Of a stretch of 64,000 nucleotides of DNA, positions 23,249-54,985 are shown in pieces (the first letter of the stretch is position 1; each line of letters opens with the position of its first letter). This stretch comes from Geminocystis sp. NIES-3709 (GTDB taxonomy: Bacteria > Cyanobacteriota > Cyanobacteriia > Cyanobacteriales > Cyanobacteriaceae), in the NCBI RefSeq assembly GCF_001548115.1, contig NZ_AP014821.1, positions 1,488,001 through 1,552,000 on the forward strand, written 5' to 3'. The position numbers and the translations under genes are program-made. The notes under the pieces were generated by a model. That model did no database searches and was not told the DNA's origin. It saw only the letters and a list, made by a program, of their open reading frames with translations.

Positions 23249-23398
23249 TTTTAAGTAGTGTATTATAATTCATTAAAAAATAAATATCAAAAGATGATTT
23301 AAAATAATTGCTTTAGCCGATTTTCCCTATCGGTACTTAGACAAAACAATAACAACAATTAAGCTATAATCTTTACACCATAATGCTTTTAGGTCAAA

Positions 23399-24753
23399 AT
23401 GAAAGAAACTACGTCTTCATCAATGCCCCCATGTTTTAATCGCTGGTGTCAAAAAATAGATCCAGTCTTAAAAACAACAGCACAAAAACGAGAGTTTAGA
23501 AATTATTTGGGCGGTTTATTAGGAGATTCTCAAAGAAAAAATCTCACTCAAATTGCTCATAATAATCTTGATAAGCTAAAACGCACCTAGTTGGCAATCC
23601 TGAATCCCTGATAGTAAGAGATTTAGAGCTAAAAAAAGGAAGATTAAATGCGTCTTAGCTTATTACCTATCATAAGTTACACCATTTTCTCACAGAATCC
23701 ACTTGGAATTATGATCAGGTAAATGATAAAAGATTAGAAATTATTGCATCTTGTCGTCAAACTAAAATAAGTCGATGTTTCTCTTTAATTCTCGATGATT
23801 CAGGACACTGTAAGAGTGGTAATTTTACTGACTGTGTGGGAAGACAATATATTGGCGAAATTGGCAAAACTGATAATGGTAATGTTATCGTCACTACTCA
23901 CATTTATGATGGTGTTAGAAGTTTTCCTTTAGATGTTGAATTATATGAAAAAGCAGAAAATTTTTCTGAAGGAAAAGACGATCCTCAATTTCACAAAAAA
24001 CCGGATATTGCCTTTAATTTAATTGAAAAATGTTTAAACCGAAATTATCGTCCCCAAATAATTTTAATGGACGGTGGTTATGGTAACAATACCAATTTAT
24101 TAGAAAAACTAGAAAAAAAGAATTTAAAATATATAGGAATTATTGCTAAAAATAGATTAGTAAAATTAGTGAAAAAAGATTTTATCGAGTCGGAAAAAAG
24201 CATAGCTGAAATAGCACAATCATTACCCCAAAATAGTTTTGAAGAAATAAGAATAGGAAAAAATCGAGAAAAAACTCTTTGGGTAGCAACCATAAATATT
24301 CAATTATCAGCTTTATCGGGAATAAAAACTGTAGCTATCGTCATGAATGCAGACAGTTTTGAAAATTCCACAGATATTGATTATTTAATGACCAATGAAA
24401 TAGGAGAAAAAGTCTGTGCAAATTGGATAGTAGAAACTTATACACAAAGAAATTGGATAGAAGTATTTTACCGTGAAATCAAGGGATGGTTAGGCTTATC
24501 AGAATACCAAGTGAGAAATAAAAGAAGTTTAATGAGACATTTTATATTGGTATTTTGTGCTTATACTTTTATCCAATGGCATCGTTTGACAGGGGGTTTA
24601 AGGAGGCAATGGGGGAAGAAACCGTTAAATACTTTTGCTGAGGCATTGGAAGCGTTTCGTAATGCTGTGTCTTTTCGCTTTTTTCAATGGTTAAAAGACA
24701 ATGTGGAAGTATTTACTTTATATAAAGCTAGTTTAGGCTTTATTTGGGCATAA
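23399..24753 (+). pseudogene. IS701-family transposase, split by MITE
   Basis: The reading frame begins MKETTSSSMPPCFNRWCQKIDP and is interrupted after about 58 codons by an 87-bp insertion. Removing 23574-23660 and one TA leaves 1266 nt, which encode 421 residues, the same length as the intact transposase at 45538-46803. Catalytic landmarks are present: LDDSGHCKSG (first acidic pair), ILMDGGYGNNT, and RNWIEVFYREIKGWLGL (final Glu). The intact copy has HRKSG where this one has HCKSG. The downstream part alone (from about 23836) would lack the first catalytic Asp. Confidence 0.9.
23574..23660. mobile_element. 87-bp MITE, IS630-derived, TA target duplication
   Basis: The segment begins AGCTAAAACGCAC and ends TGCGTCTTAGCT, imperfect inverted repeats. 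It is flanked by TA on both sides (23572-23573, 23661-23662), where the intact IS701 copy has a single TA. Its right end (reverse complement AGCTAAGACGCATTTAA) is identical to the right end of the IS630 element at 52714-53948, which is the likely source of its transposase. It has no coding capacity. Confidence 0.9.
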
Positions 24754-24774
24754 TTTTTGTCTAAGTACCGCTAT

Positions 24775-38112: not shown

Positions 38113-39271
38113 TATAAGTAAGTGGGCAGAATTAATTGTATAATTATAACATTAAAATAAATTTAATAAAATCAAAAAGTAATATACAAAAGTTTTATTT
38201 ATATTTAAAAATAATTAATGTAGCTTAAAATCTGCTAAAAATATGAAAAATAAGTAAATCAAGGATAAAAAATGCGATTTGTTACCAGATTAGCTCCAGA
38301 AACACAACAGTTATTAAAGACTATTGAACAAAAAAGTAAATACTATCAAGTTAGACATCGAGCAAAATCGATTTTGTTAAGTTATCAAGGTTATAAAATT
38401 ACTCAAATAATGTTAATATTAAATATTAGTAGAAATACAATTTATAATTGGCTTAATAATTGGGAAAAAAATGGTTTAAATGGATTATATAGCTTGAAGG
38501 GAAGAGGAAGAAAATCAACTTTAAATGAGCAACAAGAATTAAAAGTAAAAGAATGGATAAAATCTCATCCAAAAACCTTAAAGATAGTTCAAGAAAAAAT
38601 AGAAAATGAGTGGGAGATAAAAATAAGCAAAGATACGATAAAAAGATTAGCAAAAAAAAAGGGCATGGGGTGGTATCGGTTCAAGAAAAGGGTAAAAGGG
38701 GAAGTATGCCCTGAATTATACCAACAAAAAAAGAGACAATTAGAGCAACTAAAAAGAGCAGAAAATGAAGGAAAAATAGATATATATTATGGTGATGAAA
38801 GTGGATTTAGTTTAGTACCTTGTTTACCTTATGGATGGCAAGAAAAAGGGAGAAAAATAGAAAGAGAAAGTAGCCTAAGTAAAAGATTAAATGTGTTAGG
38901 ATTTATGAAAAAAAATAATGAGTTAGAAAGCTATGTATTTGAGTCATCAATCAATAGTGATGTCGTGATAGCTTGTATAGATAACTTGAGTAAAAAAATA
39001 AAGAAGGAAACAGTATTAGTAATGGATAATGCCTCGATTCACCAAAATAAAAAATTCTGGAATAAAGAAGAAGAATGGGAAAAAAAAGGATTAAAAATAT
39101 TCTTTCTACCACCCTATTCACCACAATTAAACAAAATAGAAATACTGTGGAGATTTATGAAATATAAATGGTTAGAGAACTCCTGTTATAAAAGTTATTT
39201 AGATTTAGTAAAAGGAGTAGAAAATATTCTTATAAACTTTGGTTCAAAATATACAATTAATTTTGCCTAGG
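38113..39271 (+). mobile_element. IS630-family element inside tnsB
   Basis: 1159 bp at a TA target (38111-38112 and 39272-39273). The near-terminal inverted repeats GGGCAGAATTAATTGTATA (38124-38142) and TATACAATTAATTTTGCCT (39250-39268) match at 17 of 19 positions. The exact outer boundary on the left is uncertain by a few bases because TATAAGTA there could be element or flank; the TA chosen is the one that restores the tnsB frame. Confidence 0.85.
38272..39270 (+). CDS. IS630-family transposase (intact)
   Basis: 332 residues. The N-terminal helix-turn-helix pair (ITQIMLILNISRNTIYNWLNNW; a second half near 95-130) is followed by the DDE catalytic domain: YYGDESGF, VLVMDNASIH and LPPYSPQLNKIEILWRFMKY. 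This is the IS630/Tc1 arrangement and it is uninterrupted, so the element may still be active. The stop codon lies inside the right inverted repeat. Confidence 0.92.
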   Translation: MRFVTRLAPETQQLLKTIEQKSKYYQVRHRAKSILLSYQGYKITQIMLILNISRNTIYNWLNNWEKNGLNGLYSLKGRGRKSTLNEQQELKVKEWIKSHPKTLKIVQEKIENEWEIKISKDTIKRLAKKKGMGWYRFKKRVKGEVCPELYQQKKRQLEQLKRAENEGKIDIYYGDESGFSLVPCLPYGWQEKGRKIERESSLSKRLNVLGFMKKNNELESYVFESSINSDVVIACIDNLSKKIKKETVLVMDNASIHQNKKFWNKEEEWEKKGLKIFFLPPYSPQLNKIEILWRFMKYKWLENSCYKSYLDLVKGVENILINFGSKYTINFA

Positions 39272-45469: not shown

Positions 45470-46820
45470 CGGAACTTAGACAAAACAATAACAACAATTA
45501 AGCTATAATTTTTACATCATATTGCTTTTAGGTCAAAATGAAAGAAATTACTTCTTCATCAATGCCCCCATGTTTCAATCGCTGGTGTGAAAAAATAGAC
45601 CCAGTCTTAAAAACAAAGGCACAAAAACGAGAGTTTAGAAATTATTTGGGCGGTTTATTAGGAGATTCTCAAAGAAAAAATATAACTCAAATTGCCCATA
45701 ATAATCTTGATATTACTTATCATAAATTACACCATTTCTTAACAGAGTCCACTTGGAATTATGATGAGGTAAATGATAAAAGATTAGAAATTATTGCATC
45801 CTGTCGTCAAACAAAAATTAGTCGATGTTTCTCCTTAATTATAGACGATTCAGGTCATCGTAAAAGTGGAAACTTTACTGACTGTGTGGGAAGACAATAT
45901 ATTGGTGAAATTGGCAAAACTGATAATGGTAATGTTATAGTCACTACTCACATTTATGATGGTGTGAGAAGTTTTCCTTTAGACGTTGAATTATATGAAA
46001 AAGCCGAAAATTTCCCTGAAGGAAAAGACGCTCCACAATTTCAGAAAAAACCAGACATTGCCTTTAATTTAATTGAAAAATGTTTAAATCGAAATTATTG
46101 TCCCCAAATAATTTTAATGGATGGTGGTTATGGAAACAATACTAATTTATTAGGCAAACTAGAAAAAAAGAATTTAAAATATATAGGAATTATTGCTAAA
46201 AATAGATTAGTAAAATTGGTAAAACAAGATTTTATCGAGTCTGAAAAAACCATAGCTGAAATAGCAAAATCATTACCCCAAGATAGTTTTGAAAAAATAA
46301 GAATAGGAAAAAATCGAGAAAAAACTCTTTGGGTAGCAACGATAAATATTGAATTATCAGCTTTGTCGGGAATAAAAACTGTAGCTATCGTCATGAATGC
46401 AGATACTTTTGAAAATTCCACAGATATTGATTATTTAATGACTAATGAAATAGGAGAAAAAGTGTGTGGAAATTGGATAGTAGAAACTTATACACAAAGA
46501 AATTGGATAGAAGTATTTTACCGTGAAATCAAGGGATGGTTAGGGTTATCACAATACCAAGTGAGAAATAAAAGAAGTTTAATGAGACATTTTATCTTGG
46601 TATTTTGTGCCTACACTTTTATTCAATGGCATCGTTTGACAGGAGGTTTAAGAAGACAATGGGGGAATAAACCGTTAAATACTTTTGCTGAGGCATTGGA
46701 AGCGTTTCGTAATGCTGTGTCTTTTCGCTTTTTTCAATGGTTAAAAGACAATGTGGAAGTATTTAGTTTATATAAAGCTAGTTTAGGGTTTATTTGGGCA
46801 TAATTTTTGTCTAAGTACCG
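45470..46820 (+). mobile_element. IS701-family element, copy 2 (intact)
   Basis: 1351 bp with ends CGGAACTTAGACAAAA and TTTTGTCTAAGTACCG, flanked by CTAT (45466-45469, 46821-46824), the same 4-bp target as copy 1. It is inserted into the 3' end of the minus-strand gene at 46783-48735. Removing it and one CTAT restores the native C-terminus of that gene exactly. Confidence 0.92.
45538..46803 (+). CDS. IS701-family DDE transposase (intact)
   Basis: 421 residues, uninterrupted. First catalytic Asp in LIIDDSGHRKSGNFTD, second in ILMDGGYGNNTNLL, final Glu in RNWIEVFYREIKGWLGLSQY; the C-terminal RHFILVFCAYTFIQWHRL is usual for the family. It is the functional counterpart of the split copy at 23399-24753 and could mobilise both copies. 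Confidence 0.93.
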   Translation: MKEITSSSMPPCFNRWCEKIDPVLKTKAQKREFRNYLGGLLGDSQRKNITQIAHNNLDITYHKLHHFLTESTWNYDEVNDKRLEIIASCRQTKISRCFSLIIDDSGHRKSGNFTDCVGRQYIGEIGKTDNGNVIVTTHIYDGVRSFPLDVELYEKAENFPEGKDAPQFQKKPDIAFNLIEKCLNRNYCPQIILMDGGYGNNTNLLGKLEKKNLKYIGIIAKNRLVKLVKQDFIESEKTIAEIAKSLPQDSFEKIRIGKNREKTLWVATINIELSALSGIKTVAIVMNADTFENSTDIDYLMTNEIGEKVCGNWIVETYTQRNWIEVFYREIKGWLGLSQYQVRNKRSLMRHFILVFCAYTFIQWHRLTGGLRRQWGNKPLNTFAEALEAFRNAVSFRFFQWLKDNVEVFSLYKASLGFIWA

Positions 46821-52584: not shown

Positions 52585-52712
52585 TTATTTATCAGCCCAT
52601 GAGTTGCCTATACTGCCCAGAGCCTCTTTTAAACTATCCTTAGATGCGATCGCCTCAATCCTAAAATCTTCTTTTTTTACTGATTCTAAACCAAGATTGA
52701 TTAAGAGGTAAT
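52585..52712 (-). pseudogene. 3' remnant of a gene cut by IS630
   Basis: A minus-strand frame from the IS630 boundary to TAA at 52585-52587 reads YLLINLGLESVKKEDFRIEA, then SKDSLKEALGSIGNSWADK. It looks like a genuine C-terminus, but no matching upstream part remains in frame beyond the IS630 (a stop occurs within about 12 codons of 53949), so the gene was already damaged or the junction is not simple. Family not recognised. Confidence 0.4.
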
Positions 52713-52776
52713 AAGATAAGACGCATTGATTTGGTATATAATTTAAGTCAGAAAAGATAAAACTTAGGTGTGATTT

Positions 52777-53935
52777 ATGCCTTCTAAAAATTTTTTGTCA
52801 GAGGAAGAAAGAAAGTATCTACAAGATGCTTTAAAAATAGAAAAGAGATCGGAAGTCAGGGAAAGAATTTTAATATTTTTATTAGAGAATGATGGTAAAA
52901 ATTATCAAGAAATAGCAGTTTTTTTTGGGTTGTTCCCCCAAAACGGTGGCTTACTGGGCAGTTCATGGTAATCCTAATAATGTAGATTCATTGCAAGATA
53001 AAAGAAGAAAAGGAAACCAAACAAAAGCAACGGATAAATATATTGAAAGATTATTAGAAGTAGTTGATAAAAATCCTGAAGATTTTGGATATGATTTTGG
53101 TCGATGGACGGGGCAAAGATTATCAGAACATTTGGAAAAAGAAACAGGAATTAAATTAAGCAAATCACAAGTAGTGAGGATATTAAAAAGAAAAAAGTAT
53201 AGTTATATTTGGGGAAAATATAGTTTAGAAGACAAACAAAATCAAGAACAAAGAAAAGCATTTAAAGAAAAATTAGAACATTACATAGAAATAGGTAAAG
53301 AGAATCCTGAGTTAGTTCAAGTATGGTTTTGGGATGGGGCGTTTAAAGTGGCGAACTAAATTCGCCACACAGCCCCTCATGAATGTGGTTTTAGTTTAAG
53401 GGTGATAAGAAGAAAAACATGGACGAAAAAAGGAAAAAGAAAAAAGGTGAAGGGAGAAAGAAGAAGAGGAAGAGTAAATATCATGGGAGGAATAAGATAT
53501 TCGGATAAAAAAAGAAGATGTTTTGTAATAAAAAAAGGTGATTCAGAAACGTTTTGTGAACAATTAAAAAAGTTATGGGAAGAAATAAAAAATGAATGGG
53601 TAAGTAAGGGAAATGATGAAAAAGATTTTAAAGAATGTGGTCCGAAAATAATCATAATATTAGACAACGCAAGTTTCCATAAAAAAAAGGAAATAGTAGA
53701 AAAAATAGAAAAAAATCTACCGAATATAAGACTAGAATATTTACCGGTATATAGTCCAGATTATAACTTAATAGAATTAGTGTGGCATTCGGCAAAGGAA
53801 TATATAGCTTATAGAAACTTTGAAAATAAAGAACAGCTAGAAAAAACAGTAAATTACTTATTAAATGAAGGAGGTTTAGTAATTAATTGGAGTAAAAAAT
53901 TTAAGAATAAGGGTGAATTAATTAATGTAAGTTAA
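52777..53935 (+). pseudogene. IS630-family transposase with frameshift and hairpin insertion
   Basis: The frame starts MPSKNFLSEEERKYLQDALK. At 52919-52926 a run of eight T shifts the frame by one base; seven T would read IAVFLGCSPKTVAYWAVHG. After WFWDG (53336) a 33-bp in-frame insertion introduces a TAA at 53357, and the frame resumes HECGFSLRVIRRKTW. Correcting both leaves exactly 375 codons (374 residues). The DDE parts present are WFWD(G), IIIILDNASFH and LPVYSPDYNLIELVWHSAK. The T-run may instead be a programmed slippage site. Confidence 0.85.
53336..53376. repeat. 41-nt nested hairpin inserted in the transposase gene
   Basis: GGGGC (53336-53340) pairs with GCCCC (53372-53376), and inside it GTGGCGAA (53348-53355) pairs perfectly with TTCGCCAC (53361-53368) around a 5-nt loop. 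The unit accounts for the 33-bp in-frame excess in the transposase and is far richer in G+C than its surroundings, as expected for a small dispersed palindromic repeat. Confidence 0.7.
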
Positions 53936-54985
53936 ATGCGTCTTAGCTTAGTCTCGGTGTTTCAGGATAAAAATTAAAAATTGTTGCTAATTGAGGTAAA
54001 TGGTGGTATTTCAGTAAAATATTAGTAATTGCAGAAAATATAATAGTCACGGCAAAAATATTAATTTGGTATGACTAACTGCAACCTATAAATAAATCTT
54101 GATTAGATCATGACTAAAAATATTAAACAAGCGTTAAATTCTGCTTTTCGTAAAGTACCAATTGCACAAGAAGATATTAATAAGTTTAAAGAATATTTAA
54201 CTGCACTTTTAAACATAACTGATAATAAAATTAAAGAACTAGAAGAACATCATAAAAATAATTTACGAGATTTTTTCAACCAGATTTTTGCTATTCATAA
54301 TTTTAATTCTTATCTTAATACCAAAAATAGAAATGATTTGGTGATTCATAATGGTGATCAGGATAGTCCAGTTGGGGTAATTATTGAGACTAAAAAACCT
54401 GATGATTCCACAGAAATGGTAACTCTTGATAAATTTAATGTGAAATCTTTACAGCAATTACTTTTTTATTATTTACAAGACGCAGTTGAGGAAAATAATT
54501 TTAAATTAAAACACTTAATTATCACTGATATTTATAATTGGTTTATTTTTGATGCCACTTTATTTCAAAGATTATTTAGTCAAAATAAGCCGTTAATCAA
54601 AGATTTTAAAGACTTTCAAGAAGGGCGATTACCTAGCAAAAATAGACCATTTTTTTATGAAAATATTGCTAGTAAATATATTGCTCAATGGGAAGATGAA
54701 CTTAAAAATAATTGTACTTATTTTAACCTGAAAGAATCTGAAAATAAACTTCAAGATAATCAAGATATAGAAAGCGATCTCTCGTTAATTCCTTTGTATA
54801 AATTTTTATCACCTAAGCATTTATTAAAGTTACCTTTTATTAATGATAGTAATAGTTTAGATAAAGATTTTTATAATGAGTTATTATACATAATTGGTTT
54901 GGAAGAAGTAGGAGATAATAAAAAATTAATTCAGCGTTTACCAAGTAATAATAGACAAGAAGGCTCTTTACTTGAAAATGTTATA

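Follow-up and report, generated by a model that had tools for sequence, protein, structure and literature searches.

We conclude with high confidence that M1, an 87-bp element lying inside an IS701-like insertion sequence of Geminocystis sp. NIES-3709, belongs among the non-autonomous MITEs of IS630/Tc1-mariner type and would be moved in trans by a transposase of the IS630 A/B clade, and that it does not come from the IS630 copy found in the same window (the whole 64,000-nucleotide stretch of contig NZ_AP014821.1 analysed here). The jump of M1 into another mobile element is an ordinary event, and it is outweighed by a finding that concerns the IS630 itself: in several IS630 lineages an in-frame hairpin, a 45-bp palindrome, sits between the codons for a presumably catalytic Asp and the adjacent Glu, and one of these lineages seems to work with the palindrome in place. 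If true, this would be a natural, testable example of a mobile element whose active-site code harbours a hairpin element, and of an IS family caught in the act of turning non-autonomous.

The initial annotation had described the 87-bp element as a MITE inserted at a TA inside IS701 copy 1, and this description was confirmed down to the exact boundaries (Table 1). The element is short, contains no transposase gene, carries terminal inverted repeats, and occurs in multiple TA-flanked copies, with the target TA of the window copy at 23572-23573 and 23661-23662. Its 14-bp inverted repeats pair at 13 of 14 positions in the window copy and perfectly in the family consensus, whose ends, derived from aligned copies, are TAAGCTAAGACGCA and its complement. 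The TA duplication, together with ends that match those of IS630 elements encoding a DDE_3 transposase, places M1 in the IS630/Tc1-mariner group. Folding of the M1 strand barely exceeds that of shuffled sequences (z -1.38; 19 of 200 shuffles equal or better), so our claims are limited to the end repeats.

The host of M1 owes the name IS701 to that earlier, sequence-only annotation; Pfam assigns PF13546 (DDE_5). CTAT stands on either side of both IS701 copies. Apart from M1, copy 1 is uninterrupted, and its gap-free alignment with copy 2 gives 93% identity over codons 1–58 and 95% over codons 59–421. The intact copy was a sound choice of witness for the empty site, as it has a single TA, in TTGA-TA-TTAC, at the place where copy 1 has two. 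Because M1 and the duplicated TA add 89 bases, the IS701 frame is shifted, and the reading frame that enters M1 ends at a stop at the sixth codon past codon 58.

Table 1. Positions of M1, its host, the IS630 copy, and the palindrome in the window, with two further M1 copies elsewhere in the same genome (G000; C1, contig).
Feature	Position	Strand	Remarks
M1 MITE	23574..23660	+	87 bp, AGCTAAAACGCA...TGCGTCTTAGCT; no coding capacity
M1 left inverted repeat, including target TA	23572..23585	+	TAAGCTAAAACGCA; family consensus TAAGCTAAGACGCA
M1 right inverted repeat, including target TA	23649..23662	-	TGCGTCTTAGCTTA
IS701-like copy 1	23331..24770	+	transposase split by M1 after codon 58; PF13546 DDE_5 (Pfam)
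IS701-like copy 2	45470..46820	+	open 421-aa transposase, ORF 45538-46803; empty TA
IS630 group-A copy	52714..53948	+	TA at 52712-52713 and 53949-53950; dead relative of the probable M1 mobilizer
N-terminal piece, broken IS630 transposase	52925..53359	+	frame lost upstream by 1-base insertion
45-bp palindrome	53336..53380	+	between Asp codon GAT and Glu codon GAA
C-terminal piece, broken IS630 transposase	53402..53935	+	PF13358 DDE_3
M1 copy, 100% identical to window's	G000:C1:2948563
M1 copy, 98% identical to window's	G000:C1:1689071

The window's genome (G000; 4.43 Mb, 12 contigs) holds seven near-full M1 copies, of which two are 100%, one is 98%, and the remaining four are 80–85% identical, and an eighth match that spans 29 bases only; this MITE census is a lower bound obtained from sequence searches and from the stretches around listed matches. 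The expectation that every copy would lie at TA and share both ends was largely upheld: six of the seven copies do so, the exception (L006) having lost its right end, and among five full copies in other genomes, TA stands on both sides of four, with GA on the left of the fifth (L184). Across 195 genomes of relatives, G000 counted, any match at E <= 0.001 was obtained in eight. Full-length M1 outside G000 amounts to at least one copy in a genome of the same genus (G004) and at least four in one of another genus (G009), with at most four candidates scored per genome; the remaining matches outside G000 are fragments of 28–40 bases. Among the five genomes of the genus, near-identical copies were found in G000 only. 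Two identical copies and one 98% copy occupy different sites, so M1 appears to have moved recently in G000. The window-identical copy lies between two IS630 group-A copies at G000:C1:2947319-2950159, within 2.9 kb, one of these neighbours having the palindrome and the other lacking it.

M1 is one of several related families. End-like sites in G000 gave 162 and 209 matches, and from about 100 of each among the matches listed, we recognized three or more additional MITE subfamilies, approximately 106–127 bp long and with similar ends, in the stretches around the sites (L119–L158). The right end of M2 matches the group-A left end at 88.6% over 35 bases, and the right end of M3 matches the group-A right end at 92.6% over 27 bases. 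Group A is thus closer kin to M2 and M3 than to the M1 of the window. M2 also resembles the left 24 bases of M1 (79%).

The genome gave 74 matches to PF13358. For group A of the window, 29 full IS630 copies were listed (25 at 99–100% and four at 94–96% identity), along with two relatives at 75–76% identity, designated group B. The group-A count comes from 40 scored candidates out of 220, and scoring all 83 candidates of the PF13358 search also gives 29. Each of the 29 copies occupies a TA site of its own; L015 and L029 have an identical 15-base left flank and may for this reason have targeted one TA within a repeat. Of the five genomes of the genus (G000–G004), only G000 gave group A at E <= 1e-60. 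Group A as the recent mobilizer of M1 fits this co-occurrence in one genome. M1 itself probably predates the group-A burst, because it is present in G004, where no group-A relative was detected at E <= 1e-60, and in another genus. An apparent common target of an IS630-A copy and an M1 copy in another genome was rejected, as the 15-base right flank matches and the left flank differs.

The IS630 copy of the window has no intact transposase gene: a 1-base insertion destroys the frame, the left end has mutated to TAAGATAAG, and a stop comes with a 45-bp insert. The insert is present in 25 of the 29 group-A copies, and of the four without it (L034, L035, L036, and L037) only L035 is fully open, over 369 codons; this gene, at G000:C1:1990711, was the sole group-A gene found intact. 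A single 4-base frameshift recurs in five copies with the insert (L027, L028, L029, L032, and L033), each at a different TA, which supports movement of group A in trans, as does the stop within the catalytic domain of 25 of the 29 copies. The same four extra bases occur in L037, without the 45-bp insert, so the change is perhaps recurrent or was passed between copies, and the argument for trans movement is weakened to that extent. Movement of the interrupted copies by the intact gene would be the simplest reading. Stop read-through in group A is possible, with nothing here in its favour; in-frame stops have been surveyed generally (PMC7918605). The window also contains an open IS630 gene of another group, group C, at 38272-39270, with at least seven copies elsewhere in the genome at 99.6–100% identity, so group C has recently been active as well.

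The link between M1 and IS630 rests on the ends. The right end that M1 and the window IS630 have in common, TTAAATGCGTCTTAGCT, is identical over 17 bases (19 including the TA), and their left ends, TAAGCTAAAACGCA and TAAGATAAGACGCA, agree at 12 of 14 bases; the 17 identical terminal bases claimed for the pair are therefore found at the right end and not at the left. With up to three mismatches allowed, the 17-base end has 162 matches in the genome against nine for a reversed control, an excess over chance, many of the 162 being the two ends of IS630 copies themselves. Scored as ungapped matches over the two 25-base ends of M1 (2 × 25 = 50), group A reaches 40, the window IS630 copy 39, a relative in G009 39, and group B 38 with the window M1 and 39 with the M1 consensus, followed by a Xenococcaceae IS630 (L225) at 36–37 and the IS630 of G261 at 35–36; groups C, D, and E match poorly (12–19). 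Kinship of M1 with IS630 elements of the window's type is thus supported, since A and B fit at 38–40 of 50 positions and C, D, and E at 19 or fewer. On these end comparisons M1 belongs with the A/B clade, and the ends cannot separate A from B, as the two groups differ by only 1–2 of 50 positions. Whether a different IS630 would match better depends on the end considered: judged by the left end, L225 leads by a small margin (20–21 of 25, against 18–19), whereas at the right end it is the worst of the clade (16 of 25, against 21). Past CGCA, the left end of M1 (CCTAGTTTGC) differs from that of group A (TTGATTTGG).

These data bear directly on the origin of M1, for which the initial annotation had proposed a clear parent-MITE pair, with the likely parent 29 kb away. 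It is very improbable that M1 arose by internal deletion from the IS630 copy at 52714-53948. The two share a genome, a TA target, and the 19 identical right-end bases, yet direct alignment joins them at the ends only (19 bases on the right, about 14 on the left), and the M1 interior gave only chance-level matches to the window IS630 (best E 0.12), so that no part of it can be traced to that element. The supposed parent is moreover dead and one of 29 group-A copies, which makes the 29-kb distance meaningless; group B fits equally well, and full-length relatives of M1 exist in another genus. The pairing was therefore not borne out. Duplication of an immobile M1 along with its surroundings can hardly be entertained, given that the flanks of the copies differ, the TA borders are exact, and the site in IS701 copy 2 is empty.

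A group-B IS630 (C4:46937-48128 or C1:3899120-3900311) or a close relative might instead have been both source and mobilizer; its left end, CGCAC, runs one base further along the family consensus than that of group A (15 against 14), and its right end ties with group A. We regard this as unlikely, since the two group-B copies seen are each broken into two frames near residues 136–147, leaving no intact group-B gene known here, and the summed end matches are no higher than those of group A. We give even chances to a further proposal, compatible with the preferred reading and adding an origin to it, namely that M1 was founded by another IS630 from this clade, one that G000 did not yield, and that A and B only cross-mobilize it today. 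Such a founder would have a left end like CGCACTTAGTTAGC, that of the Xenococcaceae relative; the left-end score of L225, the likeness of M2 to the left 24 bases of M1, and the occurrence of the family in two genera speak for it, and the poorer right end of L225, together with the failure of our searches to find an element with both ends, speaks against it.

Under our preferred explanation, trans mobilization of M1, an IS630 transposase of the A/B clade would recognize the 14-bp ends of M1, cut the element out, and insert it at TA with duplication of the TA, in a cut-and-paste manner. M1 would descend from an older MITE lineage common to at least two genera rather than from the window IS630; it landed after codon 58 of the IS701 transposase gene, inactivating copy 1, and an IS630 transposase would have moved it recently in G000 in trans. 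The likeliest source of that transposase would be the intact group-A gene at G000:C1:1990711 or a group-A gene since lost, with group B remaining a candidate. A transposase of the A or B type probably mobilizes M1, and we infer both the trans mode and the transposase concerned. Precedent for the reaction comes from ISY100, an IS630-family element whose purified transposase alone excises and integrates ISY100 and a mini form at TA in vitro (PMC2170065). More generally, end bases in common with a nearby IS do not make that IS the parent, and claims of parentage need checks of copy number, of further IS630 groups and genomes, and of whether the transposase is intact.

The 45-bp insert of the window IS630 follows TGG GAT (Trp-Asp) and precedes GAA (Glu); we take this Asp to be the first of the catalytic residues in the DDE domain. 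The palindrome has the stem GTGGCGAA/TTCGCCAC and a TAA stop in its loop (53357-53359), and turns the protein WFWD/ECGF into WFWDGAFKVAN*IRHTAPHECGF (asterisk, stop). Its core, GTGGCGAACTAAATTCGCCAC, occurs 25 times in the genome at up to three mismatches, always within group A, and the loop stop is present in all 25 insert-bearing copies, so in this genome the palindrome does not keep the frame. Of 291 genomes from the order, 22 (G000 among them) contain a looser core (GTGGCGAA-5-TTCGCCAC), with a differing outer sequence in many of the matches; gene context was read for three of these loci (L235, L239, and L245), none of which has an IS630 gene at that place. A longer pattern that favours the IS630 context was found in three of 386 genomes of a phylum sample, again counting G000. 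IS630 genes with an insert at the exact D/E junction occur in G000, G261, G204, G212, G256, and G152, and G212 has two insert-bearing subfamilies, one with an altered right arm and one a fragment. Four IS630 lineages carry such an insert at this codon junction (one of them seen as a fragment only), and in other genomes than G000 it occurs in frame without a stop.

The strongest case for function comes from G261. Its full IS630 copies (L264 and 11 further loci) all bear the insert and are open over 384 codons, at 12 distinct sites; they comprise eight distinct sequences, with 21 synonymous and eight nonsynonymous variable codons and a dN/dS of 0.02–0.10 in the five pairs computed. A thirteenth copy has a changed palindrome arm and has lost the frame, and no insert-free full copy was found among the 14 matches in G261. 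Because 12 of 12 copies are open, the insert is retained, and dN/dS is low, we infer that the IS630 transposase of G261 works with its 15 extra residues in place; G261 is the only genome in which a palindrome within a gene, a kept frame, and selection were seen together. A homologue of the whole G261 protein appears in 15 plasmid records, of which H14 was inspected, its length being suggestive of the insert, and the others were judged by match length (H4, H11, H13, and H15 match in two to three pieces); a search with the insert peptide gave no match in plasmids, phages, or viral contigs. An AlphaFold model of the window's read-through protein, from a two-row alignment, had a mean pLDDT of 44 and was set aside.

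Other IS630 genes show irregularities of their own. In the IS630 of H14, a Stanieria sp. NIES-3757 plasmid (L292, 601-1761), another in-frame, hairpin-forming insert follows RRKLWGKK, and the Xenococcaceae IS630 (L225, 1501-2655) has a different in-frame insert of about 16 codons after LDNASFH, partly palindromic and with one stop. Two IS630 remnants in other genomes (L273 and L269) begin at or beside the D/E junction, as if broken there.

In an IS630 tree of 27 rows, built with the insert columns excluded, the 10 rows with the insert are spread over four places, and a single clade of such rows was rejected (p-AU 3.7e-38). The starred branches force at least four changes. Two rows, L238 and L254, are partial (L254 is 31% filled and on a long branch), and L269 and L273 are labelled insert-free but are cut at the site; with the latter two uncounted, five changes are needed, and four if L254 is left out as well. 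Insert gains and precise losses cannot be separated on this tree, and the differences in arm and loop between lineages would favour separate insertions of palindromes. Outside IS630, GGGAY stands to the left of the palindromes L235, L239, L245, and L256 and is absent from L248, GGGAY having been part of the search pattern with up to four substitutions allowed; a target preference for Trp-Asp-encoding sequence is a lead. At a single locus, L245 (1064-1540), a Y1 (IS200-like) transposase gene (PF01797) is followed after 35 bp by a related palindrome, the only one of its kind found within 3 kb there, and an IS200/IS605 link of the 45-nt palindrome through L245 is likewise a lead. On present evidence we lean towards the view that cyanobacterial IS630 genes were repeatedly invaded at TGG GAY/GAR by a 45-nt, GGGAY-preferring palindrome, which was tolerated in frame as 15 residues and spread under purifying selection in one genome, and whose loop stop made 25 of the 29 copies here non-autonomous, riding like MITEs on one intact gene.

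Among known systems, Nezha is reportedly a MITE of cyanobacteria, described by Zhou et al. in 2008. M1 and Nezha are both cyanobacterial MITEs, likened here by description only, apart from sequence or parent. MITEs moved by bacterial IS transposases have been reviewed (PMC10969869), and M1 resembles them in its shortness, lack of a transposase, IS-type inverted ends, target duplication, and insertion in genes. A 187-nt MITE of Microcystis was tied to ISL3 by shared ends (PMC11448079); M1 differs in its partner, an IS630 with a TA target, and in being short at 87 bp. ISY100 (ISTcSa) of Synechocystis, an IS630/Tc1-mariner element, shares the TA target with M1, and one DDE transposase of ISY100 acts alone on a mini-element, whereas M1 itself has no transposase (PMC2170065). 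M1 is thus an additional IS630-type MITE family, of a kind already known.

For an in-frame palindrome at the D/E junction, no description was found in the open-licence literature searched. A palindromic coding repeat is said to be the subject of a published paper. The closest described parallel that we found for the 45-nt insert is the set of palindromic elements of Rickettsia, which sit in frame inside genes (PMC3733652). The likeness, one of form only, lies in an in-frame palindrome within a gene that seemingly still works; the 45-nt insert is unlike the Rickettsia elements in occupying a transposase gene, at the catalytic D/E junction, and in its GTGGCGAA/TTCGCCAC stem.
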